Source: Ceratodon purpureus (taxonomy: Eukaryota; Streptophyta; Bryopsida; Pseudoditrichales; Ditrichaceae). From it: a DNA stretch of 64,000 bases. Position numbers and translations under genes: made by a program. The notes below the pieces were generated by a model. The model worked only from the letters and a program-made list of their open reading frames with translations. It did not search any database and was not told the DNA's origin. Positions 8,546 to 51,044 of this stretch are shown here, piece by piece (within the stretch, counting starts at the first letter, position 1; each line of letters opens with the position of its first letter). The stretch is from NCBI GenBank assembly GCA_014871385.1, contig CM026426.1, positions 38,843,799-38,907,798 on the forward strand, written 5' to 3'.

Positions 8546-10111
8546 CTACCCTTGATAAGCCGGCATAATAACCGACGATCCGAGTGTTGGGAGAACAACC
8601 GGCTGCACGGGCCGGGTTACCTCTTCCGTAATCGTCCGCTCTTTGGATCGCCTAACGGTGACTGTAGTCCCTGTCACCTCCGCATGACCGGTGGGGATCG
8701 CGCAGCCTTGCTGAACCGTGCTGGCTCCGGGTGATGCCACCTGTGCTTGGTGTTCCCGGATCATCTCCGCGATCGTCTGGACCGGTTTGAAGATATCCGC
8801 GTCGACCGTCATCTGCTCGTCAAGCTGAAGGTTGCGCTCTATTGGGGTCCGGAACGCTACCCCACGAGATTCCCCTACAACGGTCCGAGAGGGAGATCCG
8901 GGGAGCGGAAGGTTCCGACCTGCGGTTCCGATACTAGGACTTCCAACTCCCGGATTGAGCAGCTGCCGAACCTTCTTCAGAATCTGGTTCATCAAGTGCT
9001 CGCATTTGGAGAGGATCGTGATGATCTTCTGCTTGTTCTCCAAATCTGCAGGCTGCAATACATTCTCGTCGAACAACCGGGCCTTGTTGACTATAGCATC
9101 CAAATTCCCTACCAACTTCCGAAGCTCACCCGAGGTCTCCTCCTGCTCGGCATGGAACTTCCGGATCTCCTCACTCTTCGTCGCCAGTTCCCTCGTAAAC
9201 TCCTGCAACTGAAGCTCCAACTGCTTCTTCTCACTCCGAAGTTTCGGGGCGTCTTTCAAAAGCTCCACCTCTCGGATCACTTCCTCCGGTAAACAGCCCC
9301 CGAGAGACGTGCAGACCCTCCTGAACAGCGTCTCGATCCGATTGTAAGAGGCCTGCGCCCGATGAGTTTCCTCCCGAATTCTCCGGAATAGTTCAACCGG
9401 AAATCCCCGCTCGGAACTGACCTCCTTCCGTTCCGCATCTCCCCGGGCCGTGGAGGGCTCCGCGTGCTGCGACGAGGCGCGTTCCGATCGTGACTTGGAG
9501 TGGGCCTTTGTATCGCCGGGATTCGGAATGATCGCCGTATCATCATCCCGTTCCGTGGACGCTGTATCCGAGGTTTTGCCGTGCGGTTCGACATCCATCC
9601 CGGGCGGGATCTCCTGAAAATTGAGGAAGTTCTTGGCCGTCGTATAATCCTCCTCCTCCTTATCCCTCAGCAAACCATACGAGTGGTAAAGGTGGTAGAG
9701 AAAAGGGGTGATCGGGGTCGGCTTCTTTCCGATCAATGGCACCATCTTCTGCACGGTTTCCGCTATGAGCGCGGCCCAATTCACCGGACGCTCCCCCGTG
9801 TACGCTCGGAAGATGGTGTTCCCGACCGTTATGGTGACCTGTTCCGGTTTCAGCGGATACAGGATTGGAACGAGGAAGGCTAAGACCTGTCTCTGTCTCC
9901 TATCCTAGCAGGCGTCTATCACGTAACCGTTGTTCTTATGGATCTTCCCGTGAAACCTATCTTGCACGTATCTATCCGTCGGGCTTGCCCAAAGGAGCCC
10001 GTTCTGCTCGAAGTCGTAAGTTTCCGCCCACCGTTCCGCACTCCACAGCGTGGGCTTGCCCCGGATTGTATTGTCCCACCTATTATCCGGTCCGTGCAGG
10101 ATCTCCGTCAC
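8546..10111 (-). pseudogene. retroelement-type accessory ORF, body (interrupted by the LTR element)
   Basis: This minus-strand coding region looks conserved, but I cannot name its family with certainty. The part nearest 10.1 kb contains a run like NNGYVIDAC and then a block resembling VNWAALIAETVQKMV and PFLYHLYHSYGLL. The middle is a long charged coiled coil (LRSEKKQLELQLQEFTRELA), and the end is Pro/Thr-rich. The layout resembles accessory proteins carried by large plant LTR elements, so I treat it as a fossil. Its beginning lies on the other side of the LTR retrotransposon, at 24,157-24,302, with GTCAC duplicated at both junctions. The region is broken. GC content is higher than in its surroundings. 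Confidence 0.5.
10107..10111. repeat. target-site duplication GTCAC, left
   Basis: The five bases just outside the left LTR match those just outside the right LTR. This is the size expected for Ty3/gypsy integrase. Confidence 0.95.
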
Positions 10112-10718
10112 TGTTAAAGGGTGATTTAGCTCACTCTTTGATAGCTAAGCTACTGTCCAAATCTAAAGGAGAACTCAAGAAATTTTAGTACCCACCTAGT
10201 ATTTCTACTTCTAGATCCTGCTCCTAGGCTGTACTCAACAAACCCAGCTCCTGCTCCATTCAGACTGCTATCAATGCAACTACCCAACACCCCATTTCCC
10301 ACAAATCCCTAGTAATCAACACACACTCCAATGTATTCAAAGGGCTCTACTTTCAGCATTAAAGTCTGTCCCATACAATCAGTCCTGCTCTAATCAGTCC
10401 TGCCCTGCCCTCCAACAACTTCCTACCATTCTAACATCATCTCCTAATCTCCATAGCCACAACAAACTCTGCAAGAGAGTGAGAGAGAGAGTGAGAGCCG
10501 CCACCCTCACTCCTTACTAACCCCCCCCAAACCCTAGCCGCCCTTCAATCTGTCCATTTTTCATCCAAGTCGATTTTTCATCCGACTGTCAAAACTTCAT
10601 CCAAAACGCAGTAACTAAGAAATCCGCAGTAACTAACTGTTTTACTGCTCCTGGCAGTTTACTGTTCCTGCTCCTGTTTTATTGCTCCTAGGTAAAAAGG
10701 CAAAAAATCCATTTAACA
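10112..10718 (-). repeat. 3' LTR (607 bp)
   Basis: It has TG...CA ends in a short inverted repeat (TGTTAAA...TTTAACA). It aligns base for base, without gaps, with the copy at 23,550-24,156 and shows 9 substitutions. A GA-rich run (GAGAGTGAGAGAGAG) is shared by both copies. Confidence 0.97.
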
Positions 10719-23530: not shown

Positions 23531-23549
23531 CTTGATGCATGGTCGCCAA
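23531..23549 (-). other. primer-binding site
   Basis: On the minus strand the bases directly after the 5' LTR read TTGGCGACCATGCATC. The position and TGGCGNC-like start fit a tRNA 3'-end complement, but I cannot say which tRNA. Confidence 0.6.
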
Positions 23550-24156
23550 TGTTAAAGGGTGATTTAGCTCACTCTTTGAAAGCTAAGCTACTGTCCAAAT
23601 CTAAAGGAGAACTCAAGAAATTTTAGTACCCACCTAGTATTTCTACTTCTAGATCCTGCTCCTAGGCTGTACTCAACAAACCCAGCTCCTGCTCCATTCA
23701 GACTGCTATCAATGCAACTACCCAACACCCCATTTCCCACAAATCCCTAGTAATCAACACACACTCCAATGTATTCAAAGGGCTCTACTTGCAGCATTAA
23801 AGTCTGTCCCATACAATCAGTCCTACTCTAATCAGTCCTGCCCTGGCCTCCAACAACTTCCTACCATTCTAACATCATCTCCTAATCTCCATAGCCACAA
23901 CAAACTCTGCAAGAGAGTGAGAGAGAGAGTGAGAGCCGCCACCCTCACTCCTCACTAACCTCCCCCAAACCCTAGCCGCCCTTCAATCTGTCCATTTTTC
24001 ATCCAAGTCGATTTTTCATCCGACTGTCAAAACTTCATCCAAAACGCAGTAACTAAGAAATCCGCAGTAACCAACTGTTTTACTGCTCCTGGCAGTTTAC
24101 TGTTCCTGCTCCTGTTTTACTGCTCCTAGGTAAAAAGGCAAAAAATCCCTTTAACA
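23550..24156 (-). repeat. 5' LTR (607 bp)
   Basis: It is the partner of the copy at 10,112-10,718, with the same length, the same TG...CA ends and 9 substitutions between the two. The element's promoter should lie here, but I did not find an unambiguous TATA box. Confidence 0.97.
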
Positions 24157-34396: not shown

Positions 34397-35899
34397 ATGA
34401 GGGGGTCCTACAAAGCTGAGGTTGTAGACTTTCAATTTAAGCTTGATGGATGCAAGAATGTTTGCAACAAGCCGGAGTTGGAAGCAATGTTGGTAAAACA
34501 TGCATACCATTGGGATCAAGTGCTCCTAGATAGGAGATTTGGTACGATCATGTTTCATCTAATTGTAAGTGTATATGACTTTCTAGATGCCACCAAATTT
34601 GTTTTTCATCCAGCATCACTGCCTTTCAATTTCACATTGCACAGGCATTGCACTGTTACTTACTGATATGGTTTCTCATGTTGTCTGTTGGTAACAATTC
34701 AGTACCAATTCTTCTTTGAAGACTGGGTGGACCCGCTCTCAATATGTTCAGTAATCGTTGTCATGCATAGCGAAATTGGAAAATCAACTCAGAGTGAGAG
34801 GTTCTACAATAAACTGCTTTAGGATGGAAATTTCTTTTCTAACCCTGTCTCTGTGCCACCTACACCAAGAGTTCAATACGGATCAGTTAAGCCGCTATTG
34901 TTGCCACCATTGACTGCTCCTGATTGGTCTCTCGAAGACATGTACACCAACAAAGCGTGCCTTTTCAAGCTTCGGGCGGATTCCCAAGCTGTGACAAAGC
35001 TCACTACTAGCAGCCGCATGGGCCACCTCCAATGATTCATGATGTTGCATGTGTTTGTTGATCTTTTCAAGTGTGAAGAAGACACAATCAGACGCACGTT
35101 TGTCCTTTTTGTTATCAACACTCTCTCTAATGAGTTGTTTACAAGCCTCATGGATGCAGGTTGGCAAAAAAATATTGTCCTTGGTAAAGACATTGTGAGG
35201 TATACTATATCAATGGACACCGTAACCTTTAGATACGGAAACTTCTCTTGGCAAATGGTACTGTTGGTAGCACCTTGCTAACAACGCTATGCTGGCACTA
35301 TGTGTTGGCTAGCTTTGTTGAAAATGCATGAAACCAATGCCATTAGAGTTTTTCCTGCCCTTAAATTGTTGAAGAAATTAACTTCAGACTTGCTGAGATG
35401 TGTATTGTGGGCTGAAGGTACCACGCAGCTCGTACAACACTGTACACCAACTTCAAATACAGAACAGAATGATTGGCACAAGATGGTGTAAGTTGGCAAC
35501 AAATAGATGGAGTGCACAAGAAGGACACGGTAGTGCCTCCTTGCTTGTTCAAAGGTGTAACAGTGGCAAGGTTTCAAGTGGGTCAAACATGGCTGTTGTC
35601 ACACATTTGCAGAGAGGTTGTAATAACCTTAGGAGGTGTGGTTCCAGAAGATTTCCGCTTCAGAGTCCAATGAGAAGGGTTTTTGGACTTCTATGTGAAC
35701 CGCATGCATGAGGAAGCCAACTTGTTACCACAAGTCCTTCCTCTGCAGACATTTGAAATAGTAGAAGTTACTACCTAGTTAGAATAGCTTGAAGTTGAAA
35801 AGAGTGTAGAAAGAAATGAGTTGCCAGCAACCACGTTCATTGGACAGCTAGGAGCATCCTTTAAAAACAAAACGTTGGAAACATCGTTGTGTAATGAAG
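34397..35899 (+). pseudogene. parent-element gene C, decayed, cut by the MULE
   Basis: A series of frames in the same direction looks like one old gene. The pieces are KAEVVDFQFKLDGCKNVC, WSLEDMYTNKACLFKLRADS, RRTFVLFVINTLSNELFTSL, MDAGWQKNIVLGKDIVRY, FQVGQTWLLSHICREVV and ELPATTFIGQLGASF. They are separated by stops and frame changes. I do not know a named family. The gene runs into the MULE insertion at 35,900, and its last codons resume at 51,035 after the 10-bp target duplication. It shares the TTGGAAACAA-rich surroundings of the minus-strand remnants beyond 51 kb, so I take all three as parts of one decayed element. Confidence 0.42.
35890..35899. repeat. MULE target-site duplication TGTAATGAAG, left
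   Basis: The same ten bases recur at 51,035-51,044 directly outside the other inverted end. Mutator-like elements make 9-11 bp duplications. Confidence 0.85.
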
Positions 35900-35975
35900 G
35901 AGGGAAGCTTGTATGTGAGCGGTGAGCAGAGAGCAGAGATTTTTTGCTCTTAGAGCGGAAAATGGAGAGCAGATT
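35900..35975 (+). repeat. MULE left terminal inverted repeat
   Basis: The first 23 bases match the right end inverted at about 19 positions. After that, GAGCGG/GAGCAG words are iterated (GTGAGCGGTGAGCAGAGAGC, then AGAGCGGAAAATGGAG). Iterated hexamers next to the end could be transposase-binding sites. Confidence 0.75.
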
Positions 35976-36271
35976 CTAAAAATGGAATTTTTTATACTAA
36001 ATATAGAATATAAGTTGAGGAAAAGAGAATCTTTTCAAATATTCTAAGGAATATTCCTTGAATGTGGGATACTTTCCGGGTTTTATTAAAGGGTTTTTCT
36101 GGTCTGCACACCAACTACCGGTCTCGAAATTGTGCAGCAGGGCGTGAATGACGGGGTCTTCTCTGATTTCACTGGAATAAATGGATGACCCTGGGGCCTT
36201 TGCTCTCTCTCTCTCATTTGTTAGCTGGTGGAATGTTTAGGGTTTGGGGTGGGGTGCATATCGTTTTTGCC

Positions 36272-36715
36272 ATGGAGGAAGTCAGTTTTGGGGTTGTATC
36301 CCCAGGTGATGAGGGTGGGCCATTTGAACCCTTTCTTGAAGATGAGGGTGAGGAGTTGTTGCTCGAGCCACGACCATCGCCTCCTTAACCGGTAGAAGGT
36401 CGACATAGCAATGGTCTTGATGTACTGCCATCTACTGTTACGGAGGCGCTTGACAAATTGCCCACTAAGGAGGTTGAGTCCAAGTTCCTTCCAAGCCATG
36501 CTTATTCCAGGGTTGGCAGAATTCCTCCGGGGACTTATTCGAGATCCGCAATATGTGGACGTGTGGGGTCCAGTCCAGTCATTAAAATTCCTCGGTCTGG
36601 TCGAGGTCCTTCCTCAAGTCCACGTCTGGATGAATGCGTCGTCCGTTCGATGGAAACTAAAAGTAGCTATGTAGAAATATTAAAAGGACGGCCAAGCCGC
36701 ATCCGATTCATGTGA
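36272..36715 (+). pseudogene. MULE end-gene, about 147 aa, one premature stop
   Basis: I do not recognise it. The ATG at 36,272 opens MEEVSFGVVSPGDEGG, and a single frame runs to a TGA at 36,715, broken only by a TAA at 36,386-36,388. A C-to-T change in CAA would explain that stop. The first third is acidic. The rest is Ser/Pro/Arg-rich with SRVGRIPPGTYSR and VIKIPRSGRGPSSSPR, and the end is basic (GRPSRIRF). It lies between the left terminus and the 3' end of the transposase gene, the position of a second small gene in some MULEs. Confidence 0.45.
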
Positions 36716-36936
36716 TGTAATATTCTTTAAGAAAGTGTATGGTAATAAAGTAATTATTTGTGGAAACTGAATGGTGGACAAGATGTGCGACGACAATTAC
36801 TCGGCCAGGTGTCACTTTTTTTTAACAATAATGGCAAATCAAATCATGTATTACTGAGTCATAGTCAGACTCGATTAAAAACAAAAGCAGAGTATCACCG
36901 CGACGTCGTGACGGTCTAAATTAGAAAGGGCAAATT

Positions 36937-39900
36937 CTAGACTGTCTCGTAGGGCCCCGCCAAGGGGTGTGTCAAGATTCCACTCTCGAGGAGTAACTTC
37001 ACTTTGTTGAAGCTAAAGGTGGGTGCATGGATGAAAAGTTCCACATCCGGATCACGCAAGCATACCTTTAAGAGGACGTAATACATATGTTTGCAATATG
37101 TAAGTTGAACCCTCCCACGGAACTTTGTCATTGTTTTCTTGAATGTTGGGCATGTGTAGCCGGGGAGGGAGCTGATGGTGATCTGGTATTTCGTCACATT
37201 GGGAGGAGCCCCAGAGTCTACCACGATGATGCAGCTGTGGCCGGGATGAGGAATCATGGTGATAGACCGAAGTCGTGCTTTGAGGGAGTCGGAGGAGGCC
37301 ATGGACAGCCTCTGCTGCGGATTGGGTCGAGTCGCGGTCCGCTTGACAATCTTCCCGTCTCTCTTTCCAGGGTAGCGGGCAGCCTCTGCTGGCACCGGAA
37401 CCGAGTCTAGGTTTCGCGGAGGGGGTCGGAGGTGAAGAGCCTTCTAGGCGAGACTGGTTTCTTTTGTGGGAGCTGAAACCCTGCCTCCTCCAGAGCAAGA
37501 ATCTCACAGCCTTTCAAGTTCGTCCCAAGTTTGAAAGGCCATACTGTTGGGATGGGTGGAAATCCTTCCTTTCTCGATAAATCGTACCAGTTCACCCATT
37601 TGCGCCTTGTCCCCTTCACGCACCTCTGAATGTCGTCGGGGCAGAAGAAGAAGTCTTTGGATATGTCGAGGTTCCTCCTTCTGCTGTGCCATACACTGCT
37701 GTAGGTCGGGACAGGGGTGGGCTTAGCTCCCCAGACAATCCTCTCTGTGCATTTCTTATTGGTGACGGCCCTCTGCGCCCAACAGCATTTTGCGGAAGTC
37801 TTTGGCAGCCGAGCAATGTGCCAGTGCTTCACGTTCACTCTGGTCAACTCCACAGTCGAGACGTGACGCACGCCTCCTTCGCTGAAGGGTGAAGCGATGA
37901 CGGAATCCATCTGTGGCGATGGATGATGAGCTGCTTCAACCTCGCAGTCGCCTTCCTTGACGATGATCGGCATGGGAGCCACGCAAGCTCTGATAGGTCT
38001 AGTCTGACTCGAGGATGCGAAAAGTTTACCTTATCTGGCCTATGCAACTCTTCCTCAGCGCCAAGAGGCAAGTCGGGCTTGCGCTTCCGCGAACCAAACA
38101 GCTCCTCCCCTGGCTGATGTGGGATGCGAGTACAAAACTCATCGGCGCCGGGCATGTCCAGCATGGGGTCCTCCAGAACCTTTGGATCGCCCGTCTTTTT
38201 CGCCCTACGTTCTGCGGATTGTAGCCTCAGCTCCTTTTTGCTCGAGCCAGTGCCCCCCACGTCGCCCTTTAGGTACAAGTAGTAATTCACAACCTGTAGA
38301 AAAGCACGGATAAAGTCGTCCACGGTGGCCACGTACAGATCCCTACCATTATTGCCGGATGCTTGAAGCCACTTGTTGTGAACCGTCTCCGCGAGGTTGC
38401 AAGACGGCATCTCTGCAAGTTCCGCCTCCAAGAGTTTCTGAGATCCAACAATGGATGAACGATTAATGAATCACTACGATGAGCATGTACGGGGAAAGAG
38501 AAAACAAGAGTAGGTGGTGTGGTTACCTCGGTCATGAACCCACCCCATTGGCGATAACGATAATGCCAGAATGAGAGCCATAAGTCAAGTTTCGATAAGG
38601 CAGATTTGGACATTGCCCCCGCAGATGGCCACCAAGCCCTTATCCCGTGATAAAGAGCATCGGCCTCCACCATTGATCTTGCCATCCTATATTGCTGACA
38701 CATCTTTTTGTGTTGATCCTACAACTCTTCGGCGACGTATTTCTCGGTATGAAGCACCATGGACTGGGTCCAATGAAATTGACAGGTCCTCTCTCGGTCC
38801 TCCATTTGATCTTCCTTGTTGCCATTGCCGTATACTACCCGGACCGCATTCCAATTAGCCTAGGCGTTGTCCGCCATGAAGCCCTTAAAGTTGGGCTTCT
38901 CCACGCCATGTCTCTTCATGACTGCATTGAGGTACTTCCAGAACACCATCTGGGCTTCGGCGTCTTCAGATTGCATGTCGCAACATGCGATCGTCATGAC
39001 CCGGCAGTACGTGGAGTCATAGACGTGGCATGCCATGGTTGTCCAATTTCGCACGCGCTTGACTTGGTCAAACATCATCCACGAAAGCTCCAGATCCCCC
39101 GTCAGCTGCATTCTCTTCACAAGATTGATACTACTAGCGGGCCCAAGCTCCGACATTTTGAACACGTAGACCTTGTCAAATTCTGACCCTTGGCCAGGGA
39201 ACATGTTGTTCTGTACGAAATCCCATGTGCTGAGTCCCCGCAGTTTCGTTATGCTGTCCATTACCCCATACCGTCTAAGGTACCTAAAAGTAACGACCTT
39301 GTTCCTAATGTTAGGCGACGCCATATCTTTGCACCTATCGAGCAACGAGTAAAGCTCTTGAAGAGTGAGCGTCTTGGGTGGATCATCCTCCGATTGTAAT
39401 AAAAAACTACCAATCAGGTCCTTGCTGGCCTCTAGTACAACGGCGCTCTTCGTAGCCTTGGGTGTGTTCTCGATCTGGTTTTCTATCAAACTACTTATCT
39501 CAACCTTAATGTCCCAGTAGTCTCCCACCTTGACAGGGTGGTCGTGGGATCCTACGTGGATGCACGCCCGTGTCCTATTGCCCTTTCCCGAAACATAAAA
39601 TATCCTTGCTCTACAAGTGGCAACGCATACGGGAGGTTCCTTACATACCTTGCAGACCAAAGTGGATTCTTTCGGAGCCTCGTCACCCACAGCAAACGCC
39701 TGCAACGTGCATCTGTCAAATTCGGTCTCATTCATGTCGAAGATGCAATGATCGCGCTCAAGGTACCCGCAGTCCTTGTTTCGCACCGCAAATGGCCTGC
39801 ACATGAAGACGAATGAAAAGAGAGGCCCATATTGTTGGAGATGTTGGTGGTGATCGTCTTCGTCCACACGTGCCCATCGTACCTCTTATCCATGCCTTGC

Positions 39901-40691
39901 ATGGACTTGGCGGCTGATCGTGAGGCAGAGGATCCAACAAATGGCAGTTCAAAGATGACGTCACCGTTGAACTCCGCCGGCAGATACTCCACCCTCTCAT
40001 GTCTGATGGAATCGTAGTCTAACTTCTTCAGGAGGTTCTTCTTACCCGACCGCAAAGTAAGCTTCTTCAACAGCGATACAATACTCACGGACTCGTCCAA
40101 AGAAGCGCGCACGACCATGAGATTCGAAGCGCGAGTGTCCATGGCCGCCTCGGGACGGACAGGTTCTCTGGCGGGAATATATCCGGCTGACTTTTGAGTC
40201 CGTGGGCTCTCGTCATCGTCAGAGGAGAGATTGATAACCGGGGTATCTAAGCCCGGCTCGACTTTAACTTTGGCAATGAGAGGCGTATCTGAGGCAGAGT
40301 CGGTCTTCAACTTCACGTCTACCGCTCCTGGTGTCTGGATGGTGCAAGTGGAGGACCGTCTGGGGGTCAGGATCTCGGTGGACGCAGCCATCTGGGAATC
40401 CGTGAGACCGTAGACTCTAAACCTACCAGGCGTGAGCCTCCACATCTTACAATCCCTCTCGTCCACGAATGAGACCTGGCCTAGTGTATGTGTGATCTCT
40501 CCAGTGAGGTCATCACAAATCTCCTCCTCGACGCTAATGGTGTCTCCTTGATACAGGAACCTAAGACTAAGACGCTGACATGACACAAGAGCGTACCCAT
40601 CATCATCTACCCGAAACGTAAGCGGAATTCCAACGCCATGTGCGTAAAGAAAAATGGAACCTAGGAACTGAGCCGGGACAGGTAGCGCCAT
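36937..40691 (-). pseudogene. MULE transposase (GCM/WRKY-like zinc region, D-D-E core, SWIM-like end)
   Basis: An ATG at 40,691 opens a long N-terminus with acidic, Ser-rich linkers. A Cys/His region follows, with CGYLERDHC and then ATCRARIFYVSGKGNRTRAC and HVGSHDHPVKVG, a GCM/WRKY-like C...HxH pattern. The MULE catalytic core is visible: first Asp in HVYDSTYCRVMTIACCD, second Asp in FKGFMADNA followed by the family's C-x-F-H-W (RTCQFHWTQS), and Glu in CNLAETVHNKWLQ. A GT-AG intron (38,438-38,526) precedes the Glu exon. Near the end, YTCPTFKKTM...LTYCKHMYYVLL is a SWIM-like zinc motif. Two in-frame TAG codons (38,860-38,862 and 38,719-38,721) fit CAG-to-TAG changes, and about three frame changes lie near 39.79, 37.98 and 37.40 kb. 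The copy is inactive as it stands. Confidence 0.78.
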
Positions 40692-41208
40692 GGCGTAGGG
40701 AGTTCAGAAAGAGCGACACAATCAACGAAGTGCAGAATTGAGAGGGTTGTCGCAGCATTTTCCACTGCATTTATACGTTTGAATTTGCTAATCTGAACTT
40801 GTCATATCAGAGACAAATGTTGAAGAGAGGATGAATTCCTGACGGACTCAAAGGGGATGATGACTGGGTTTACGGGCCCCCTATGTTTACTTGAAAAGAC
40901 GATCATGCGACAAATCACCAGCCACAACAAGGCTCTATAATAAGGGCTAGCCGTCTCTTGACTGCCACTGAATATAATTAGGGCTGGTCCACCGTGTCAG
41001 AGTAAATTCCCTGACATGGGAAAAAGGGGAGGGATCTCAGCCGCCAATTCTAGGAATTTTGAGTTAAGGAAATCTTTATTTGGAAGGGCGCCAAAAGAGT
41101 TGGAAGCGTCATAAATAAGTGTACTCATCATGACGAGAGATATATTAAAGCATGGAGCGGCATTCTGCGGGATGTTTAGTATAACAAGAGAGCAAGATAG
41201 TGTCACAG
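40692..41208. promoter_or_regulatory. region between the divergent transposase and cargo genes
   Basis: About 0.5 kb with no gene separates the start of the minus-strand transposase from the plus-strand genes. Transcription should leave it in both directions. I see no clear core promoter sequence, so the call rests on layout only. Confidence 0.35.
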
Positions 41209-41469
41209 ATGCATGTCGATGATTCAACTGAAGTGGTCGCCACTCCTGTGAAAGAGAGAAAGAGAAAGAGGAAGGGGAGAGACAAGCTGTTTTCAAATTC
41301 GAAGCAGCTGACAGCTTCGAGGATGAGACAGGCTGAGGAACGGAGGCAACATGTTGAGGGGTTTGGCGAGACCGTGAAGGCATTGAGTTGGGACTTCGCA
41401 AAACTTCCCGTCATAGCAGTACCTCGAGTAGCAAAGGGAGGCGGGTTGTGTGAGACATTGCCATCGTAG
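41209..41469 (+). CDS. small basic hypothetical ORF in the MULE
   Basis: An ATG at 41,209 opens an 86-codon frame. It has a strongly basic run, KERKRKRKGRDK, likely a nuclear localisation signal, and then a helical stretch (SRMRQAEERRQHVEGFGE). No family is recognised. It could be a separate small protein or an upstream exon of the ParB-methyltransferase gene 300 bases further on. Confidence 0.35.
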   Translation: MHVDDSTEVVATPVKERKRKRKGRDKLFSNSKQLTASRMRQAEERRQHVEGFGETVKALSWDFAKLPVIAVPRVAKGGGLCETLPS

Positions 41470-41774
41470 TGTGTGACGCCGCTCCAGCAATCAATTCCCG
41501 TCACCATACCTGAGTGCTTAGAGGTACGTGTGTTAATTGTAGACATCATTAGTTTGTGCGCCCTTGTTCTTGAGGCCAGGTATAAGAAGGGGGAGAAGCT
41601 CCATGCTCAGTCTCTCTGTGCCCCCTCGTGGTGTTCTTAGCTCGCAGCCTTGCTGTGCCTGGCTTACACTGCGTTGTGGTTTTTGTGTGTGGTAGTGTAG
41701 TGCAGTCAGGGTTCTGTTTAGGGTGTCGTCGTTAGGGTTTGTAGGGTGCGGGTCGGTCTACATAGTTTGTCGCC

Positions 41775-44700
41775 ATGTTTAACCCTAAGTATGGAGGGAA
41801 GGTGAAGAAGGGTAGGTCGAAGAAGGGCCATGGGGAGGAGAGGTCGTCCAGGAATGAGAAGTCACCAGGAAGTGAGAAGAAGGGTAGAAAGAAGAAGGCT
41901 GGAGATGAGAGGTCATCAGAAAGTGAAAGGAAAAGTAAGAAGAGGCCAAGTAGGGAGGAGCGTCCCAAAAAGTACAAGAAGTCTAAGAAGGATAGAATTG
42001 CGGACTCTGCTATCCAGCGAGAGCAGGTAAGATAGTACTCCCTGAAGTAAGGGCGGGAAAAGTTATTAGGGCATCGTCAGAGCGTCCAGTTCCTAAGTAT
42101 GTATCTAGGGTTTTAGAAAGGGTTCAACTCAGCTGACTAGTTAGGTTGCGATACATTGTTGCAGGAAGACGGAGAGGAGGAGGCGCAGGAGACGGCTGTA
42201 GAGGAGACGCAGGAGGCGGCTGCAGAAGAGACGCAGGTTGTAGCTGCTGGGCTGAGGCAAGGAGGGGAGGGGCAGGACGGGAGCATGGACTTGCAGGCGA
42301 CGGAGCTGTCTGAACGGGAGGAAGTGGCAGGCAATGTCAACAAGGAGACGGCCATGGCCGAGGGCGTGAACGTAGGTGCGGCGCTTACATTGCAGAGTAC
42401 ACCTTCACCGAAGAGGGCGGAGAAAGCCGAGGTGGAGGCGAAAGAGAACGATCCACTGGTGGATGAAGAGGAGGAAGAGGAGGACCATGCAGACACGCCG
42501 CCGGCTAAGCTCACATGGCCACGGGTTAAGAAGGGGGAGGAACCGCCGAACAACCCTCTAGGAAAGGACGAGGGTGTGACATCAGCGGAGATAGAGGCTC
42601 GGATGATCAAGGAGTTCGAGAACGACACCTTTGTTGCAGTCAACCAGAGTCCGAAATTGCCGATAGAGAAGTTCTCAAGGTTGAGAATTCCTTTATGCCG
42701 GATGGTTAGTATGCCCGAAGTTAGGCCAGTGTTGGAGTCTGAGGTCTTACGGTTGCAAAGCGAGTTCCAGTCCGGGTATAGAGTAGGGTCAGCAGTGTTC
42801 TATGTGGCTCTGACCGATTCGAAAGGGAGGGAGAAGCTGGTTACAGATGAAATCAGAGAGAAATGGAGTTCTGCATGGGATCAGTTGTATAATGAATTTG
42901 AGTTAGAATTGAATTCTGACCCCGATTTGAAGCCACTTTGCGGAAAGATGTTTTTCATTTACGATGGCAATCACCGCTACACGGCCTGGAAGCGCTACAT
43001 CGATGAAGCTAAGATGGGCAACATGGACTGGCATCGCCTTCACGGTATGCCAGATTGCTTGGTCCTTGAGATCAATAAGAATCTTTATCCGAGTATTCTC
43101 AAGGCCGTGCATTCAGTTAACAAGTAAGTACCATTCCCAGACTAGAGCTTAAATTTTTTACTCAATGCTAAGTCGTGGATTTCATTAGATGAAGTTCGTG
43201 ATATCTAATATCATACGTCGTGACAGGTCAAATGAGCAGGCGCCTGTCAAGACAAATGTCTTGCACCAGATCGAGATGGTGCACAAGTATGGGCAGCTAC
43301 CTATAAAATATTTTAAGAATGTGCTCAGCAAGGAAGAGTACCTGAGGGAGAAGAACAAGTCGACCAATACTTGGTATCCATTGTTTTCTGAGACAATGGT
43401 CAACCACCTCTTCTTGGTAAATCCTTTAAACTTAGTTACTCCTATCTGATTTATAGAGTATTTCGAATTACATAATTATACTAAATTTCGGGGTTGAATG
43501 TGGCAGGAAGAAATAGCTGGTGCAAGCGAGAAAGCATGCAACAACTACAAGCAGACGACGCCGCTGAACAAGCAAACAGGGGAGCGTTTACGTGGGGTTA
43601 TATTCAATCACATTCTGAAGAAAAAAGAAGCGCTAAACAAGCTCTTCAGCAAGCTCCAAGCGGTTGCAAATCCTAAGAATGGGAAGGATTTTATCGCAAA
43701 GGTATGTAGTTGTTTGACATTTTTTAGTTAGATTTGTGTAAGTAATTTCTTTTTTCCTTATTGAGGGCCGGTTGAGGCCCTGTGGTCCAGTACCCCGACC
43801 GCGCCCTTGAGGCCGCGTAGAGCCTGTAAGAGCCTGTAAGAGCCTCCAAGGGCCCCTTGGGGCCGGATTCCCGACCGCGCCCTTGAGGCTCGGAGGGGTC
43901 TCTCGGTGCCGAGAAGCCCCTCCCGGCCTCAATGGCGCAGTCGGGGAACCGGCCCCAAGGGGCCCTAACCGGCCCCTGTTGGGTTGAGAGGGGCCCGTAA
44001 AGGTCCCTTCGGACCAGAAACTCGACCGCGCCTCTGAGGCTTGGAGGGGTCTCTCGGTGCCAAGAACCCCTTCCGGGCCTCAGAGGCGCGGTTGGGTTTC
44101 CGGCTCGAAGGGGCCAAAGATGCCCCTAATTACCAAATCCTGACCGCGCCTTTGAGGCTAGGAAGGGGCTCTCGGTACCGAGAATCCCTTCCGGGCCTCA
44201 GAGGCGCGATTGGGTTTCCGGCCCAAATGGGCCTTTACGGGCCCTTTGGCCTCCATCCTCGACCGCGTCTCTAAGGCCCGGAAGGGGCTCTCGGTATCGA
44301 GAGCCCCTTCCCAGCCTCAAAGGCGCGGTCGGGTTTCTAGCCACTTAGACATTTTTGGGTGTTATATTGCTACTTGACTGTTGCCTGATGAGTTAGCACT
44401 TTACGTAGGATGTGTTTTAACTTCAAATGATGACCAGTAGAACGTTACTATCCAAAATATTTTGACCCTCTAGGTGAGCTGCAAAGACAGGCGGCTCGTC
44501 ATGTTTGGCATTGATGAGCCGTTTGTATTTGCAGATTTCTTGGAAGGTTCGAGTGTTTCGGTCACTGACGTTCTTTATCGCCTCCAGAATGTGGTGTAGC
44601 TGCAATGGAGGAATGGCCTGATGAGCGTTTGTTATGGCATGACTTTGATTCTTACGTTGTTTGGGTTTACGTCCTTTCAGATTCGGAACCATTACAACAA

Positions 44701-46733
44701 TCGCCCTAATCAAAAGTGCGAGATGGGGCTAGACAAATTCAGCTTATTGTGACCACTAACGTAAAGGGGATCTATAAAGTGCGTTGGCTGTAGATGTGGA
44801 ACGGCTCTGATAATACTAGGGCTGCAAACAGTTTTCTGAGGTCTTCGTGCACTGAATCTCAACTTCATGCTTGGCTGCACAAAGCATGCTTCTATGCGCT
44901 GCTGGAGGACGAGATCACGGAGAAGATTGAGCCTATCCTGGTTGAAGATCCGGTTCCAGTCTGGACTAAGGAAGTGAAGTCCTGGCAAGTGTACCTAAAC
45001 TACTGGAAGAAGAAGGTTTGGCAAAAGGCTTTTCCAGCTGTCTTTGGTGGGAAACATACATTCCAGCAGAACGACACTTGGGACCAGGTGCCTAAGGGCC
45101 ATCTCATCGTCAGCCGGTTTATCTATGGATGAGTATCAAAACATTGGTCAGCTTATAGTTTTGTTTAGTTTGGCCTTTGCGCAATTAAGTAATTTGACCC
45201 AATTCCCTCTATTTTGTAGATACTACAAGAGGGAGTTGATGCCAAAGGCGGCGATCACGGAGGAACCAGATTGGATGGATACTTAGACTGAGCCTGGCCA
45301 TGACTCGTTCATCTTCACGAAGTACCTGAAGAACACATTTCCGTCGACGCATCTCAAGGAATGCGGGTGGTACATCGAGTGTGCAAAGACTTTCTGCCCC
45401 GCCGACGAGGAAGATCTGAAGAGACAACTAGGTGTTGTTAACGCCACTCCGGAGGAAGTACCTGACGTCAAAGAGGCTGCAGCGGAGGACCCGAAAGTTG
45501 GTCAGAGGAGAAAGAAATCGCAGGCGCAGCTAGGAAGACGCGTAGCGCAGAGGACCACTGCATCACAAGACGGTGGTACTGGTTCAGTTGTAGGGTCACC
45601 GGGTGATAAACGAAGAGGACAGCAGTCCCCTAAATCTCCCAAGTCCAAACGTAGACTGGATGGACCTTTGCCATCAGGGAACTCCTATACTTTCGATTTG
45701 ATCATGAATGGTATGATCAATAAATGTAAGTTCGATGCGGTGTACAAGTTCGCGAGCCAGTGCAATTATGATAGAACCTGCCGGGTTTATGGGAGGAATC
45801 AGATGAAGGACGGAATGGTGGACCTTGTAGTTGCCCAGGTTCCGGACAACTCTCCGGTACCAGGCATATCAAGAACGGCCTCGGATGTCCCTAAGTGGAA
45901 TGTCCTTCACAAAGACTCGTTCAAGAACACGTTTGTGTTTGCCCATAATTTCTTGCACGATGATGGCGCCCTTGTCTTCGTTTACACTAACGATAACTCC
46001 ACAAGGAAGACTATCAGGTCCTTCTGCCCAAGCCTCGGGTTCAAGATGTTTAAGGAGTGGACCGGCTTCAACATACTGCCACTTCGGGTTCCATCTAAGG
46101 CTCAGACCACTAACCTTTTGAGGGTGGGTCAGATGCACTCCGGATCCGAGGCCAGCATCTCTCTCCGCCTGCACTCGGAACTCTGCATTCACCCTGAAGC
46201 CAACCCACAGTGGAGATATTGACGTTGTGAAGGGAAACGTCCTTATGAACTCGGCTAACGCCAAGACTATGAAGATGAACGGCGATCGGCCTTGGCGTGG
46301 TCCTAAAGAACTTGATGAGTATTTCTGGGGCTGCATCGTTTTATCTTGCACATCCCCTGGAGGCATTGTCCTTGACCTCACGGCGGGAACAGGTCCGGGC
46401 TTACAATCTTATGATACTGACTTTCCCGTACTTCCAGATTGTAGTTTGCCTTAACACTAACTCCCTTCTTTGTCGACTTATGTAGGCGACTCCATACAAG
46501 TGTGTCGCAATCGTGGCCGTCACATTGTCGCTATTGAGGAGGACGAGGACATATTTAAGGAACTTCTTGCTCCGATGAGATCTGACTTGGTTCCCCGTGC
46601 ACCTGCCGGGGGCCATCACAGTGACCAAGAAGACGAAGACGACGACGACGATGACGAGGTTCCTCCAATCCTGCTTGGAGAAGAAGATCTGGCTTACCAT
46701 CCTCCGGAAATCCGACCGAAGAGCAGGCAGTGA
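41775..46733 (+). pseudogene. ParB-like / beta-class amino-DNA methyltransferase fusion, seven exons, MULE cargo
   Basis: The exons are 41,775-42,026, 42,165-43,123, 43,227-43,416, 43,507-43,701, 44,474-45,116, 45,220-46,392 and 46,486-46,733. All junctions are GT-AG and the phases agree, giving about 1,220 codons. Exon 1 is a Lys/Arg/Ser-rich nuclear-type tail. Exon 2 starts acidic and then holds a ParB/sulfiredoxin-type domain ending in FFIYDGNHRYTAWKRYIDEA (the GxHRxxA motif). The C-terminal third is a permuted N4/N6-type methyltransferase: a motif IV position in MVDLVVAQVPDN, then HNFLHDDGALVFVYTND, then RPWRGPKELDEYFW, then the SAM motif IVLDLTAGTGDS, and then GRHIVAIEEDEDIFKELL. Lesions are a frame change near 44.6 kb, TAA at 44,707, TAG at 44,791, TAG at 45,284 and a frame change near 46.19 kb. 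Motif IV lacks a clear DPPY. Function in DNA methylation is inferred. Confidence 0.72.
43760..44340. repeat. long-palindrome satellite in intron 4 of the methyltransferase gene
   Basis: Four units of about 118-150 bp each contain a near-perfect palindrome of roughly 75 bases centred on CTCTCGGTACCGAGAG-like sequence (centres near 43,906, 44,058, 44,176 and 44,296). The arms include CCGACCGCGCC and its complement GGCGCGGTCGG. A weaker partial unit precedes them. In RNA each unit would fold into a hairpin with a stem of over 30 bp. GC content is far above the flanking sequence. Confidence 0.85.
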
Positions 46734-47190
46734 GTGTAGTCGTCAGGTCTCGTATTAGATAGAAATTTTGAACATTTTGTGATTCTAACAGTCAGGCTTA
46801 GAATCGTCTTTTCTCAGGTACTGCCTTCGTATGCAGAGTGGCCCGAGTTCCCTTGTCGCCGGCAGCTACGGTCATCCGCATGCCTGTTTACGCTGAGCAG
46901 GCAGCAAGACACCAGGCTGCATTACCTTCCCCAAAGAAACGGAAGACGAAGCGGAGATATGACTAGGCAGTTAAGGAGTACCTACATTTGCAGGCTGCAG
47001 TTGATAATACATGGGATCCAGGTGATGAGGACTCAGAGTATTATGATACATATTGTCAATATTAAGACCAAACTATTTTATTGAATCCTATATTTCCTTA
47101 ATTTAAAATTGTGGTATTGTTGTAATTATCGGTCTTGTTGTCGTACCCCATCGAGCAAGCCCAATATTGCACATTAAATATTTGTTCTCC
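46734..47190. other. spacer downstream of the methyltransferase gene
   Basis: No supported gene. The 3' untranslated region of the methyltransferase transcript should end here; AATATTAAG/AATTTAAAA-type AT-rich sequence at 47.06-47.11 kb would suit a polyadenylation site. Confidence 0.35.
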
Positions 47191-47195
47191 ATATG

Positions 47196-47700
47196 GAAGA
47201 TGGAGAGGGAGAGTGAGAGTGACGAGTAGAGATTGCGAGGGAGAGGGACATGGACATGGAGAGGGGGTGACCACGCGTGAGAGAGAGAGGGAGTGGCCGC
47301 GAGAGAGAGGGAGAGGGAGGGAGAGGGAGAGGGAGAGGGAGAGGGAGAGGGAGAGGGAGAGGGAGAGGGAGAGGGAGAGGGAGAGGGAGAGGGAGAGGGA
47401 GAGGGAGAGGGAGAGGGAGAGGGAGAGGGAGAGGGAGAGGGAGAGGGAGAAGGAGAGGGAGAGGGAGAGGGAGAGGGAGAGGGAGTGGCTGCAAGGGAGA
47501 GGGAGAGGGAGAGGGAGAGCGACAGGGAGTGACCGCGAGGGAGAGGGAGTGGGAGAGGGAGAGGGAGAGGGAGAGGGAGTGGGACAGGGAGAGGGAGAGG
47601 GAGTGGGACAGGGAGAGGGAGAGGGAGTGGGACAGGGAGAGGGAGAGGAAGAGGGAGAGGGAGTGGCTGCGAGGGAGAGGGATAGGGGTCGGGAGTCGCG
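47196..47700. repeat. GAGGGA hexamer array
   Basis: This is a purine-rich simple repeat, perfect over about 47,305-47,485 and interrupted on both sides by GTGGC- and GACAGG-type variants. Long frames of Arg-Glu on one strand and Ser-Pro or Leu-Ser on the other are artefacts of the repeat. Such GA-rich tracts can form triplex DNA. Confidence 0.95.
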
Positions 47701-47954
47701 TTGAGACAGGGAGAGGGGGGAGGTAGGGAGGGAGGGTGGGTGGTCTTCCAAAAAAAAGTGTGTCTCTGAACTCTCTTAGACCGAGGAGGGGGGGGCCTGC
47801 CGATTCCACAGAGAGTATTATGTGGAGGAAGGGTTCCTCGGGAGCCGGCCAGGATTTCAAGGGGACTCCTTGTCCCCCGTCGCGGGGGGGACTCCCTATC
47901 CCTGCTCGCGGCGGGACTCTTTGTCCCGCGTCGCGGCGAGACTCGAGGCTCGCA

Positions 47955-48176
47955 GCTGGGGAGTCGGAAATCGGGAGTCGGGAGTCGGGAGTTGGGAGTC
48001 GGGAGTCGGAAGTCGGGAGTCAGGAGTCGGGAGTCGGGAGTCGGGAGTCGGGACTCGGGACCCGAAACTCGGAACTCGGGATTCGGGACTCGGGACTCGG
48101 GTCTTGGAACTCGGGACACGGGTCTCGGGTCTCGGACTCGGGACTTGGAACTGGGGTCTCGGGACTCGGGACTCAT
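47955..48176. repeat. TCGGGAG heptamer minisatellite
   Basis: About 30 copies of a 7-bp unit TCGGGAG, drifting to TCGGGAC. The open frames within it are by-products of the repeat. Confidence 0.92.
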
Positions 48177-48502
48177 TTAAATTACAGAACCAAAGCAAAA
48201 ATAAAAATAAAAAATAAAAGTAAAAACATTAATCAAATGACATAATAAAGGGAAAGAAAAGGAAATCAAAATCAATAATTTAAAGATTAAAATGATAGTG
48301 TGAATAAAGATTAAAAACATAACAACTTTAAGGTTGTCATTATAACTCGCATTTATAGTACTTCCAAAATGGTACACGGTTTACAAAAACCTCTACACAA
48401 GGGCATTGAACCTGCCAAAGAGGCACCACTCCACTGAGCAACACGGTACCCCAAAATTTGCACACATTCCTAGCCAATTTCTAGGCTACCATCTACAAAT
48501 GT

Positions 48503-48952
48503 CTAGGCTACTTCATCCTCAACTACATCCGCTTTGTTTTCTGGGGCAATGATCTCCTCCACACGCGTTGCATCTTCTTCCAACTTCGGCCGATAAGCCT
48601 GTGCCGCCTCTCGATCTTCGAAGCCCAACCAATAGGGATGAGAATCAGAATCATAGTCTTCAGCATCTTCCATCTGCATGTGGACAGTCTCCCCTTCATA
48701 TTCAACAATGGTGAGAATGAGGGTATCTCCCCTACATCCATAAGGCACCCATTGACCTCCAAAGAAATTGCCCTCCTCCTTCGGCTCCTCATCCTTTGGC
48801 ACCTCCACCTTGGGCATCTCCACCTTGGGAACCTCCACCTTCGACACCTCCACCATGGATCCTCCAGAACTGGATTCTCCCCTTCCCCTCTTCTTGCCAA
48901 TTGTCTTCGAGCACTGCCCCTTGGAAGCCACCTTCACCACCTTGCAAACCAT
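48503..48952 (-). CDS. small acidic hypothetical protein with VEVPK repeats
   Basis: The start at 48,952 is preferred (MVCKVVKVASKGQC...) because the frame above it runs into a Leu/Ser-rich simple-sequence stretch. The product has 149 residues: a basic head (KTIGKKRGRGES), five or six repeats of a VEVPK-type pentamer, and an acidic folded-looking tail with PYGCRGDTLILTIVEYEGET and YWLGFEDREAAQAYRPKLEE. The frame is intact. I do not know the family. The gene diverges from the plus-strand gene at 49.8 kb across a GC-rich spacer with hairpins. Confidence 0.45.
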   Translation of the reverse strand: MVCKVVKVASKGQCSKTIGKKRGRGESSSGGSMVEVSKVEVPKVEMPKVEVPKDEEPKEEGNFFGGQWVPYGCRGDTLILTIVEYEGETVHMQMEDAEDYDSDSHPYWLGFEDREAAQAYRPKLEEDATRVEEIIAPENKADVVEDEVA

Positions 48953-49808
48953 CTTTCTAAAGAGAAAAAGGAGGGAGAGAAGAGGAGAGAGAGAAGAGGA
49001 GAGAGAAAGAGAAGATAGAAGGAGAAGAGAGAAGAAGAGAAGGAGAGGAGAGACGAGTCCGAATGGAGAGGAGAGAGTGAGAGAGAGAGTGAGAGAGAGA
49101 AGTGAGGAGAGAAGTGTGAGTTGTGAGGGAGAGTGGGACCCCTTATATCGGCCCCACCAAGCCCTCACGGCCGCCTCCTCTTTGTAGGCTGGGAGGCGGC
49201 TCCCTCCCAACCCTGGAAGAAGCCCTCCCTCCTTAGGGTTGGGAAGGTCGCTCCTTCCCAATCACGAGGAAGGGAGCCTCCTCCCAGGGTTGGAAGGGCG
49301 CCACCCTTCCAACCCTCAAGGGAGGAGAGGAGGCCGCCGCCTTCCTTAGGCGGCGGCCACCGATTGGGGGCGGTGGCCACCCTCAGGCGGCGGCCTTGCC
49401 CTAAGGGCTCTCGGTACCGAGATTCCCCATGGTGATGGGGCTCTCGGTACCAAGGGTCCCTAGTAGGGACTCTCGGTACCGAGAGCCCTATCACCATGGG
49501 GGCTCTCGGTATCAGGTGGCCCTCCCGGCCATAGGGCTCTCGGCACCGAGAGCCCTCTTCAATGGGTTTTAATGGGCATCCCCCTTGATGAAGGGGGCCA
49601 CCCGGCCCTTTATAAGTAGGGCGCCTTTGCGGCGCCCCCCTTTCTGACCTAACCCTGGTGAGAGAGGCGCCCTTTATAAGGGCGTCCCTCCTTCCCCTCT
49701 TCTCACAATCTCTCCTCCCTCCCTTCTCATACTCTCTCCTTTCTGTGCTCTCCCCTCTTCTCATTCCTCTCCCTCTTTGCTTCTCTTTCTGTTTTTTCGA
49801 ACTTCAGG
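48953..49808. promoter_or_regulatory. spacer between two divergent MULE genes
   Basis: The spacer runs from the start of the minus-strand acidic gene to the start of the plus-strand gene at 49,809. It contains CTCTCC/GGAGAG-rich tracts near both genes, resembling pyrimidine-rich plant leaders, and the hairpin cluster. A TATAAG sequence occurs near 49,610 and again at 49,675 (CCTTTATAAG), and TTATATCGG near 49,143 on the other side. This is a likely two-way promoter, inferred from layout. Confidence 0.4.
49390..49556. repeat. cluster of five CTCTCGGTACCGAGAG hairpins
   Basis: Cores lie near 49,416, 49,446, 49,475, 49,508 and 49,535, spaced about 30 bp. Some are perfect inverted repeats, others have drifted on one arm. 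The core is the same as in the intron satellite at 43.8-44.3 kb, but the spacing and flanks differ. Confidence 0.85.
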
Positions 49809-50078
49809 ATGGCGGGGCCGCAGTCGGAGGTGGAGATGAAGAGCTTCTTTGGGGACGTGCGTTTCATCGAAGTCATTCTGGAGATTGAGGCTGAGGTGGA
49901 GGAGTACTCTCGGATTTTGAGGGAGAACATCGTGTATTCCAAGGACCTCACTGCAATTTGGAACTATGAGGCAGGCATTGCGTTTTCTCGACTTGTCGAC
50001 ATCTGCAAGTACACCTGGGAGCCGCCTTCCATAGAGCTTACCCGTATACGGGGTTCTTCTAGAATTAGCTTGGCTTAG
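49809..50078 (+). CDS. small hypothetical protein in the MULE (89 aa)
   Basis: The ATG in GGATGGCG context opens an intact frame: MAGPQSEVEMKSFFGDVRFI, two amphipathic helices (EVILEIEAEVEEYSRILREN), and a basic end. No family is recognised. Coding-looking pieces continue in the same direction at 50.39-50.74 kb (ESEADDDDGDEGDVQTSALV), so the true product may be longer through splicing. Confidence 0.42.
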   Translation: MAGPQSEVEMKSFFGDVRFIEVILEIEAEVEEYSRILRENIVYSKDLTAIWNYEAGIAFSRLVDICKYTWEPPSIELTRIRGSSRISLA

Positions 50079-50384
50079 CTTTGGTGTAGCTAGTAATTAA
50101 AGAGCGGATTTGTCCTAATTGTGCTAGCGCGGGTCGGCCTATATTATGTACAAGTTTTATCATCGATTAATGGAGAAGCACAATTGAACAAGATGAAACG
50201 CATGCGGCTTCATTGTTCTAGATCCGCAAGTTTCTTAGCTAATGGCTTAGTATGTGGTGAGTCCATTGCATTTTGTTTTCAGGTTTCAAGCATAATTGGA
50301 AGTTACTTTTCGTGTTGATTTTGGTGGATGAAAGATGTGCAAGCTGGTTCAAAGATATGGAAGGATACTAGAGTATCGATTGCC

Positions 50385-50790
50385 CCAAAATGAACGGATT
50401 GCACAGTAGAGACCTACGATACATGTCCATTTTCTACCTCAACAGCGAAATTATCACAGCAATGAATCTGAAGCGGACGATGACGACGGAGATGAAGGAG
50501 ATGTCCAAACTTCCGCTCTTGTGTTGACTGCCAACTTTTATATTGGCTGAGTGGAAGGTGTTCCTCGTTCAAGTAAAGAGCTTCCTCCAGATTCTACTGG
50601 CTTCCCAATTCCAAGATTGCCTTCCACATAGGAAGGTCAAGACACCATGCAAACTTCCGCTCTTGTGTTGACTGCCAACTTTTATATTGGCAAAGTGGAA
50701 GGTGTTCCTCGTTCAAGTAAAGGTATTTTGCAAGGTATTTTGCTCCTATTTCAAATCAGATGTCCATACAATCTATTCACCATGATGTCA
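50385..50790 (+). pseudogene. coding pieces near the right MULE end, with internal duplication
   Basis: One frame reads LPQNERIAQ, then an acidic NESEADDDDGDEGD run, then QTSALVLTANFYIG and VEGVPRSSK, the last two repeated. TAG and TGA codons interrupt it. A 73-bp unit occurs at 50,506-50,578 and again at 50,650-50,722 with two differences. It is probably the last exon(s) of the gene starting at 49,809. Confidence 0.4.
50506..50722. repeat. 73-bp direct duplication
   Basis: Copies at 50,506-50,578 and 50,650-50,722 share 71 of 73 bases, 144 bp apart. The near identity makes the duplication recent compared with the decay of nearby genes. Confidence 0.9.
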
Positions 50791-50959
50791 TGATGACGTC
50801 ACCCTAATTTTTGTACGAGAAAGAGAGGATATCTGCACATGAGACATCTTTTTTTATGCGGATATGTTCACAAAACCCCATACATGGGGTGACATTTCTT
50901 GAAAAATGTTTCAAAATATGAGCTTAAAATGCGCAGTCTAAGGCGACACTAAACCCTAG

Positions 50960-51034
50960 ACTGGTCCTAAAATTTCCAATTTACCGCTCACCGATTTCTG
51001 CTCTCCGCTCTCCGCTCACATACGACCTTTCCCC
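50960..51034 (-). repeat. MULE right terminal inverted repeat
   Basis: Read inward from 51,034 on the minus strand: GGGGAAAGGTCGTATGTGAG, then CGGAGAGCGGAGAGCAGAAA, then GTGAGCGGTAAATTGGAAAT. It mirrors the left end including the iterated GAGCGG words. Confidence 0.75.
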
Positions 51035-51044
51035 TGTAATGAAG
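51035..51044. repeat. MULE target-site duplication TGTAATGAAG, right
   Basis: Identical to 35,890-35,899. In the reading frame of gene C it encodes part of ...LCNE, so the insertion fell in the last codons of that gene. Confidence 0.85.

Follow-up and report, generated by a model that had tools for sequence, protein, structure and literature searches.

Introduction

Several described systems share parts of the organisation reported here. Two-gene Mutator-like elements (MULEs), such as MuDR with mudrB, are described as combining a transposase and a further gene, with a SWIM finger and duplications of 8-11 bp (PMC6446971). In Arabidopsis, VANDAL elements carry the anti-silencing factor VANC, whose targets are reported to be often tandem repeats that differ between related elements (PMC5735166, PMC13317346, PMC10398659). 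A ParB-type domain fused to an amino-methyltransferase is described in the protein Bce_0392 (PMC5512222), and retrotransposons with their own DNA methyltransferase include SymbioLINE-Dnmt, SymbioDIRS-Dnmt3 and examples from Klebsormidium, as well as DIRS elements with Dam-like enzymes (PMC5890265). The word "methyltransferase" is absent from the main text of a MULE review (PMC6446971), and searches of the open-licence literature, judged from titles, abstracts and passages, listed no ParB-methyltransferase of a DNA transposon. We analysed 64,000 nucleotides of Ceratodon purpureus (assembly GCA_014871385.1, contig CM026426.1, positions 38,843,799 to 38,907,798), hereafter the window, and identified a transposon of 15,135 bp in which a transposase-like gene stands head-to-head with a gene that joins a ParB-like domain to an amino-methyltransferase-like domain, here called the ParB-methyltransferase gene.

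A transposon family with a second, ParB-methyltransferase gene

We found that one family of plant DNA transposons regularly carries the ParB-methyltransferase gene as its second gene, an association that is both real and unusual. The element in the window extends from 35900 to 51034, the positions at which homology with another copy, on contig C9, begins and stops, and it lies on contig C6 (110,524,308 bases) of an assembly of 362.5 Mb in 151 contigs. Its target-site duplication of 10 bp falls within the 9-11 bp taken as typical of MULEs. The core of its terminal repeat, at up to three mismatches, matched the genome 342 and 354 times, compared with 0 and 0 for the reversed pattern. Ten further element pairs were picked by eye from the listed portion of these 696 matches, and seven of them were flanked, where their edges had been predicted, by an exact duplication of 10 bp (GTGTAATACA, TTCCGCGGGG, TCCCACTCCT, TCCGGCGCAG, GCATGGCATG, GGAGGAAGCG and GGAGCCGCGG), compared with 1 of 90 when left and right ends were mismatched.

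The two genes are divergent and paired in many copies of the subfamilies that we label A (that of the window and the C9 copy), B and C, and in the one locus of subfamily D that was read for this arrangement. Using the window frame as transposase query (119 matches listed, with one 24-residue fragment excluded), we found 61 close copies of 71-100% identity; a close ParB exon lay within 20 kb of 56 of them, in all cases head-to-head, and within 4.1 kb of 51. The ParB exon itself has at least 151 genome matches (best besides itself E 7.4e-129), listed among 1855 first-look candidates, and 150 of these, 69 close and 81 distant, were used for pairing. A transposase was present among the matches listed within 20 kb of 57 of the 69 close exons. 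The sequence-only reading had held that gene copies without a link to the transposase would speak against residence in a transposon; on this point the result is mostly favourable, with the remaining 12 of 69 counting against, and the element termini together with the genome-wide pairing confirm that the gene genuinely resides in the element. Among the 81 distant ParB copies (36-57% identity), 61 lay no more than 20 kb from a transposase of subfamily C or B, always head-to-head and in 60 cases within 4.5 kb, compared with a mean of 0.96 and a maximum of 4 under random placement. No ParB exon was found among the matches listed for 35 of the 98 C/B-type transposase matches. Transposase copies of 65-72% identity had one nearby among the matches listed in 3 of 57 cases, and may carry a more distant ParB version or none. 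The methyltransferase exon follows the same organisation, since 37 of 39 full-length subfamily-A exons (from 58 of 97 matches, shorter fragments being excluded, set against 68 ParB matches) were preceded, at no more than 25 kb, by a ParB exon in the same orientation.

The coding sequence appears to be maintained. Full-length subfamily-A methyltransferase exons are free of stops in 29 of 30 cases outside contig C6 and in 6 of 9 on C6, where several copies of the methyltransferase contain stops. For the subfamily-A ParB exon, the ratio of nonsynonymous to synonymous substitution (dN/dS) was 0.34 among copies outside C6, 0.31 within C6 and 0.29 across the two, from 24 of 30 exon loci (six had no frame anchor) and pairs that are not independent. 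The methyltransferase exon of the window compared with the C9 copy gave 0.30 over 367 codons and 0.27 in the motif IV stretch, and two copies of subfamily E gave 0.115 for the ParB exon and 0.46 for the methyltransferase exon; in subfamilies D and F synonymous divergence (dS) is saturated. Because dN/dS is about 0.3 in subfamily A, we read the protein as being kept under selection.

Structure of the gene in the window

The ParB-like motif and the methyltransferase-end motifs are present where the sequence-only reading had placed them. The exon at 42165-43123 contains FFIYDGNHRYTAWKRY, and the intron at 46393-46485 is flanked by RPWRGPKELDEYFW and IVLDLTAGTG on its 5' side and by GDSIQVCRNRGRHIVAIEEDED on its 3' side. 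The interval between the two domains was overestimated at 1,000 codons, as the joined reading gives 686 residues. Of the six GT-AG introns once proposed as the mark of a eukaryotic gene, five are clean (42027-42164, 43124-43226, 43417-43506, 43702-44473 and 46393-46485) and the further junctions near 44597-44680 and 45133-45219 are plausible; the conclusion that this is a spliced eukaryotic gene stands. What had been missed is that the window copy is broken: set beside the open C9 copy, it has lost 1 bp after 44739, 69 bp after 45686 and 8 bp after 46127, and a TAG stands in frame at 45284. There is probably an additional exon beyond 46733. A candidate last exon lies at 46818-46965 (GT at 46730, AG at 46817, frame provisional), and its residues are similar to those of the final exon in subfamilies C and E (LPSYAEW or MPVYAEQ).

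The ParB-like domain

The product of exon 2 is supported by its structure model as a ParB/sulfiredoxin-type (Srx) fold. ParB-like nucleases of phages are among the matches to the model, as is, at a Foldseek E of 0.024, a 479-aa "DNA methylase" from Mycobacterium phage Vincenzo. No curated sequence profile for ParB/Srx was matched above its cut-off, DndB reaching 0.02 (one of seven) and DUF1015 0.069 (two of seven), and among PDB sequences neither ParB nor sulfiredoxin was matched. The ParB-like domain that had been proposed from a motif receives its support at the level of the fold, with curated sequence profiles remaining below cut-off. A profile of the ParB exon recovered 150 public relatives at 1e-5 or better; among the 120 listed, an organism is named for one only (P0010), the hypothetical protein M758_9G115400 of Ceratodon purpureus. 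The joined window protein had no direct match at 1e-3 among 5.8 billion proteins.

The methyltransferase domain

The amino-methyltransferase family profile PF01555 matched 8 of 8 family members scanned at E up to 1, the best at 1e-11. Matches above the curated cut-off were obtained for subfamilies C (1.3e-7), E (1e-11) and D (1.6e-9) and for locus F1 (3.1e-9), and the C9 copy of subfamily A reached 4.4e-5 and 24.0 bits, below the cut-off of 26.7 and covering the motif I end only. These profile matches in sister subfamilies, together with an alignment to CcrM, uphold the assignment to the amino-methyltransferase family made earlier. Scans of the separate frames of the window with Pfam, NCBIfam and PHROGs returned nothing significant.

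The motif for binding S-adenosylmethionine (SAM), motif I, is recognisable in all eleven members read, its last G being S in one copy of subfamily E. The N6_N4_Mtase family has the motif IV pattern [DNS]PP[YFW], which was not found in any subfamily read. In the HMMER alignment, the column of the CcrM DPPY holds the D-x-P-E of the family, and the residues at this place are QVPD in A, DVPE in B and E, DIPE in C, DQPF in D, DQPY in F1 and DTPF in F2. The acidic and aromatic residues of motif IV are both retained only in DQPF, DQPY and DTPF. QVPD is not a local mutation of the window copy, because the open C9 copy also has it. From these residues we regard ordinary amino-methylation as unlikely for subfamily A, as doubtful for B, C and E, and as possible for D and F. 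METTL14, an inactive partner protein in N6-methyladenosine (m6A) formation with EPPL at this place, is a precedent for such a motif change. The sequence-only reading had supposed that the element carries its own DNA-marking enzyme, perhaps to methylate its ends or to resist host silencing; with the window copy broken and the open C9 copy lacking DPPY, a working enzyme in this element is not supported, and judged from these residues, self-methylation by the window element is doubtful.

No close donor for the gene emerged from public proteins, viral contigs or phage records. The methyltransferase alignment had seven public protein matches at 1e-5, none with an organism name. Viral contigs contained 14 loci that match the methyltransferase, chiefly at the motif I end, and tblastn against phages gave 65 records, of which the ten listed showed 29-38% identity over at most one third of the query. 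The AlphaFold2 model of the methyltransferase part had a mean predicted local distance difference test (pLDDT) score of 39 and was not used. We also observed that three subfamily-A methyltransferase matches (C5:3956749, C7:17436946 and C4:9216924) sit in open frames of 3552-3776 codons, an odd length for this gene, perhaps through fusion with the long frame of another element.

Palindromic sites beside the gene

Eight CTCTCGGTACCGAGAG sites, at up to three mismatches, lie in the two groups of Table 1, and the remainder of the window contains none. Five shuffles of single bases inside short blocks each left 0 or 1 site; this control followed the discovery of the palindrome in the window. In the C9 copy the same two places hold 14 such sites, those of the second group being mostly 33-34 bases apart. 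Exact CTCTCGGTACCGAGAG occurs 148 times in the genome, compared with 0 for the reversed pattern and 0.08 expected by chance. The 50 sites listed of these 148 were located relative to genes and terminal repeats chosen by hand from the lists for the same contigs: 19 are no further than 3.5 kb from the start of a subfamily-A exon, 27 stand 1.27-1.5 kb away from one of the terminal repeats listed, and 4 are 3.9-5.5 kb from a subfamily-A gene. Exact palindromes at C1:8780207, C4:4940401 and C3:845833 lie about 1.4 kb from terminal-repeat matches with no subfamily-A gene listed nearby, and they probably mark non-autonomous or truncated relatives in which the palindrome array persists.

A different palindrome is found in subfamily B, where the one copy read has nine exact GTCGGATCCGAC sites and 23 with up to two mismatches; 17 of the 23, spaced mostly 150 bp apart, occupy the stretch bounded by the homologues of exons 4 and 6, as placed by eye. 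Both palindromes are built on the core TCGG(TA/AT)CCGA, of which 7 of 12 loci contain 26 copies in all, and the other 11 arrangements of the four letters occur 0 to 4 times. The half-site TCGG ranks first of 256, followed by ATTT with six matches in six loci. These counts include loci of D2, D3, D4, E and F that were read in part, and three D and two E loci that are close relatives. Loci of A, B, D3 and E have the TCGG half-site in common and differ in flanks and centre. Subfamily-specific sites beside a ParB-like gene are what would be expected of a parS-like recognition system or a VANC-like target array (PMC5735166).

The transposase-like gene

The first half of the transposase-like gene, split in the window, corresponds to an 833-aa open frame in the C9 copy. 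The stretch FMADSAQANW...CQFHW is also found in the transposases of subfamilies B and C, with FMADSAQANF in D, and the CxC...CKH motif is present in all four subfamily transposases aligned. The Pfam SWIM model matched at 0.056, below its cut-off, in one of four subfamily members only. The description of the element as Mutator-like is based on the 10-bp duplication, the inverted repeats, the head-to-head second gene and the SWIM-like CxC...CxH, and we consider it likely, not proven. No Pfam MULE model matched five frames of the copy labelled A5 or the separate transposase pieces. In subfamily C, 14 transposase copies including the query share the top score with 100% identity over 427 residues, and this near-identity suggests very recent activity in Ceratodon purpureus, with a sex chromosome probably included.

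Table 1. Features of the transposon in the window.
Feature	Position	Strand	Basis or remark
Left target-site duplication TGTAATGAAG	35890..35899	.	exact 10-mer; its sole other occurrence in the window is at 51035
Left terminal inverted repeat, starts GAGGGAAGCTTGTATGTGAGCGG	35900..35940	+	35902-35940 pairs 85% with 50994-51032; start of C9 homology
Transposase-like gene, second half, SWIM-like CxC...CKH	36940..38470	-	matches C9 frame 3477-5009; conserved in four aligned subfamilies
Transposase-like gene, first half	38863..40703	-	split in window: frames 38863-39885 and 39735-40703
Small open frame upstream of ParB-methyltransferase gene	41185..41469	+	also open in C9 copy
Exon 1, basic N-terminus	41775..42026	+	direct reading, GT-AG junction
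Exon 2, ParB/sulfiredoxin-type domain, model residues about 170-319	42165..43123	+	
Exon 3	43227..43416	+	direct reading; junction HSVNK/SNEQAPVK
Exon 4	43507..43701	+	direct reading
Intron-4 palindrome cluster, four CTCTCGGTACCGAGAG sites, up to 3 mismatches	43900..44303	.	43900, 44051, 44169, 44288; four sites in C9 intron too
Exon 5, 3' boundary provisional	44474..44596	+	comparison with C9 copy and direct reading
Exon 6, 3' boundary provisional; frame broken by 1-bp deletion after 44739	44681..45132	+	
Exon 7, methyltransferase motif IV region (DLVVAQVPDNSPV) up to motif I start	45220..46392	+	
Exon 8, remainder of SAM-binding motif I and acidic tail	46486..46733	+	
Sub-terminal palindrome array, four sites	49408..49552	.	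49408, 49441, 49470 (exact), 49537
Right terminal inverted repeat	50994..51034	-	inverted-arm pairing; end of C9 homology
Right target-site duplication TGTAATGAAG	51035..51044	.	exact copy of left 10-mer

Within the element, long tandem repeats of (GGGAGA)n and (GGGAGTC)n-like type occupy 47200-48175, the (GGGAGA)n kind being extensive in the C9 copy too. On the minus strand at 48503-49261, a 252-codon frame with repeated KVEVPK-like units, which has an open counterpart in the C9 copy, is a possible third gene of the element. Outside the element, direct repeats of 300 bp at 10106-10405 and 23544-23843 are 98% identical and 13.4 kb apart; minus-strand frames lie between them, one of them RNase H-like by eye, and the pair looks like a long terminal repeat (LTR) retrotransposon.

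A candidate self-recognition system

The explanation that we favour, with a confidence evenly divided between acceptance and doubt, is that the protein lets the element recognise itself, in a parS-like way, and serves anti-silencing or transposition. In this scheme the protein would be the element's own recognition factor, binding the palindromes of its subfamily, most likely through the ParB-like part, as ParB binds parS. Such binding would tell element DNA apart from host DNA, and the bound protein may keep the element expressible, as VANC does for VANDAL, or ready it for transposition. In subfamilies with DQPY, DQPF or DTPF the domain may still methylate a DNA amino group; in A (QVPD) and in B, C and E (DVPE, DIPE) it would probably bind SAM and DNA without ordinary amino-methylation. 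The palindromes make self-recognition more plausible than before. A fuller version, in which a phage-type ParB-methylase was adopted as a self-recognition system with parS-like palindrome arrays of its own, site and protein diverged together between subfamilies, and the methyltransferase became in most subfamilies a SAM-binding reader or a domain of other chemistry with a few still methylating, is offered tentatively and is somewhat more doubtful than probable.

Several observations weigh against this explanation. Three of the ten element pairs tested lacked a 10-bp duplication (one of the three has a masked flank), the C9 copy has no target duplication at its edges, and the missing MULE match described above belongs here too. 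Foldseek of the ParB-like model against the PDB gave no match at E of 0.001 or better, the best being 0.025. The palindromic core is absent from 5 of 12 loci (D1, D2, D4, F1 and F2, all but D1 covering less than a whole element), subfamily C has a single core outside the intron, so that the rule is not general, and the arrays of subfamily B are known from one copy. The sites within an array are duplicated and not independent, and hairpin or RNA roles would likewise preserve palindromes.

Some of these points lend weight to a different account of the palindromes, namely that they serve as hairpin, small-RNA or transcription elements with no connection to the ParB-like protein. The intron-4 palindromes sit amid long imperfect inverted repeats and several gene-bearing loci have no core, as this account would allow; the TCGG half-site shared by A, B, D3 and E while flanks and centre vary is harder to reconcile with it, and we judge it unlikely. 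We would give a similarly minor place to the proposal that the protein is an accessory transposition factor, whose ParB-like part nicks DNA or uses nucleoside triphosphate (NTP) to organise the ends, with no role in silencing. The ParB domain of Bacillus cereus Bce_0392 is reported to nick DNA (PMC5512222), and the sub-terminal position of 27 of the 50 listed subfamily-A sites and the divergent gene layout would suit such a factor, but 19 of those 50 sites lie by gene exons and 17 of 23 sites in subfamily B lie in the gene.

If every subfamily, including that of the window, were an active amino-methyltransferase placing N4-methylcytosine (4mC) or N6-methyladenine (6mA) on the ends or body of the element, the PF01555 matches in all eight members scanned and motif I in all eleven read would be expected, as would the D-x-P-[FY] kept in D1, D3, F1 and F2. 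The alignment of the CcrM DPPY to D-x-P-E, the change of both acidic and aromatic residues in the QVPD of the window and C9 copies, and the broken window copy speak against this, and we regard it as improbable. Judged from the transposon copies covered here, capture of a host gene fragment as passive Pack-MULE cargo is more improbable by far. MULEs are described as often carrying host-derived frames (PMC6446971), but here the pairing is kept across subfamilies of roughly 30-40% identity, dN/dS is near 0.3 and there are at least 151 matches to the ParB exon.

If the self-recognition explanation is true, a land-plant DNA transposon would have a gene of the ParB-methylase type among its conserved core components and not as cargo, and a plant transposon could recognise or protect its own DNA, which suggests a bacterial-style self-recognition route to escape silencing. 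The palindromes are a directly testable candidate binding site, and the division between subfamilies with and without the catalytic residues provides a test of whether methylation is needed.

Comparison with known systems

The element resembles VANDAL with VANC in having a second gene and element-specific repeated motifs, here in subfamily A and one copy of B. The comparison is one of published description, and the difference is that the sites here are palindromic and the partner gene is ParB-methyltransferase-like. Compared with MuDR and other two-gene MULEs, whose described second genes are different, the transposase here is without a Pfam MULE match. With retrotransposons that have a methyltransferase the likeness is that a mobile element encodes its own DNA methyltransferase; those enzymes are of the C5 or Dam-like kind, whereas here a CcrM/DpnA-type domain and a ParB part are found in a DNA transposon. 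The usual motif of ParB is GERR-type, and relative to ParB-parS partition systems this family has DGNHR in its place and site binding that is predicted. Phage and bacterial ParB-methylase fusions share with the gene the joining of a ParB-type domain to an amino-methyltransferase, and the Ceratodon purpureus gene is set apart from them by its introns, its long inter-domain stretch, its altered motif IV and its setting in a eukaryotic transposon.

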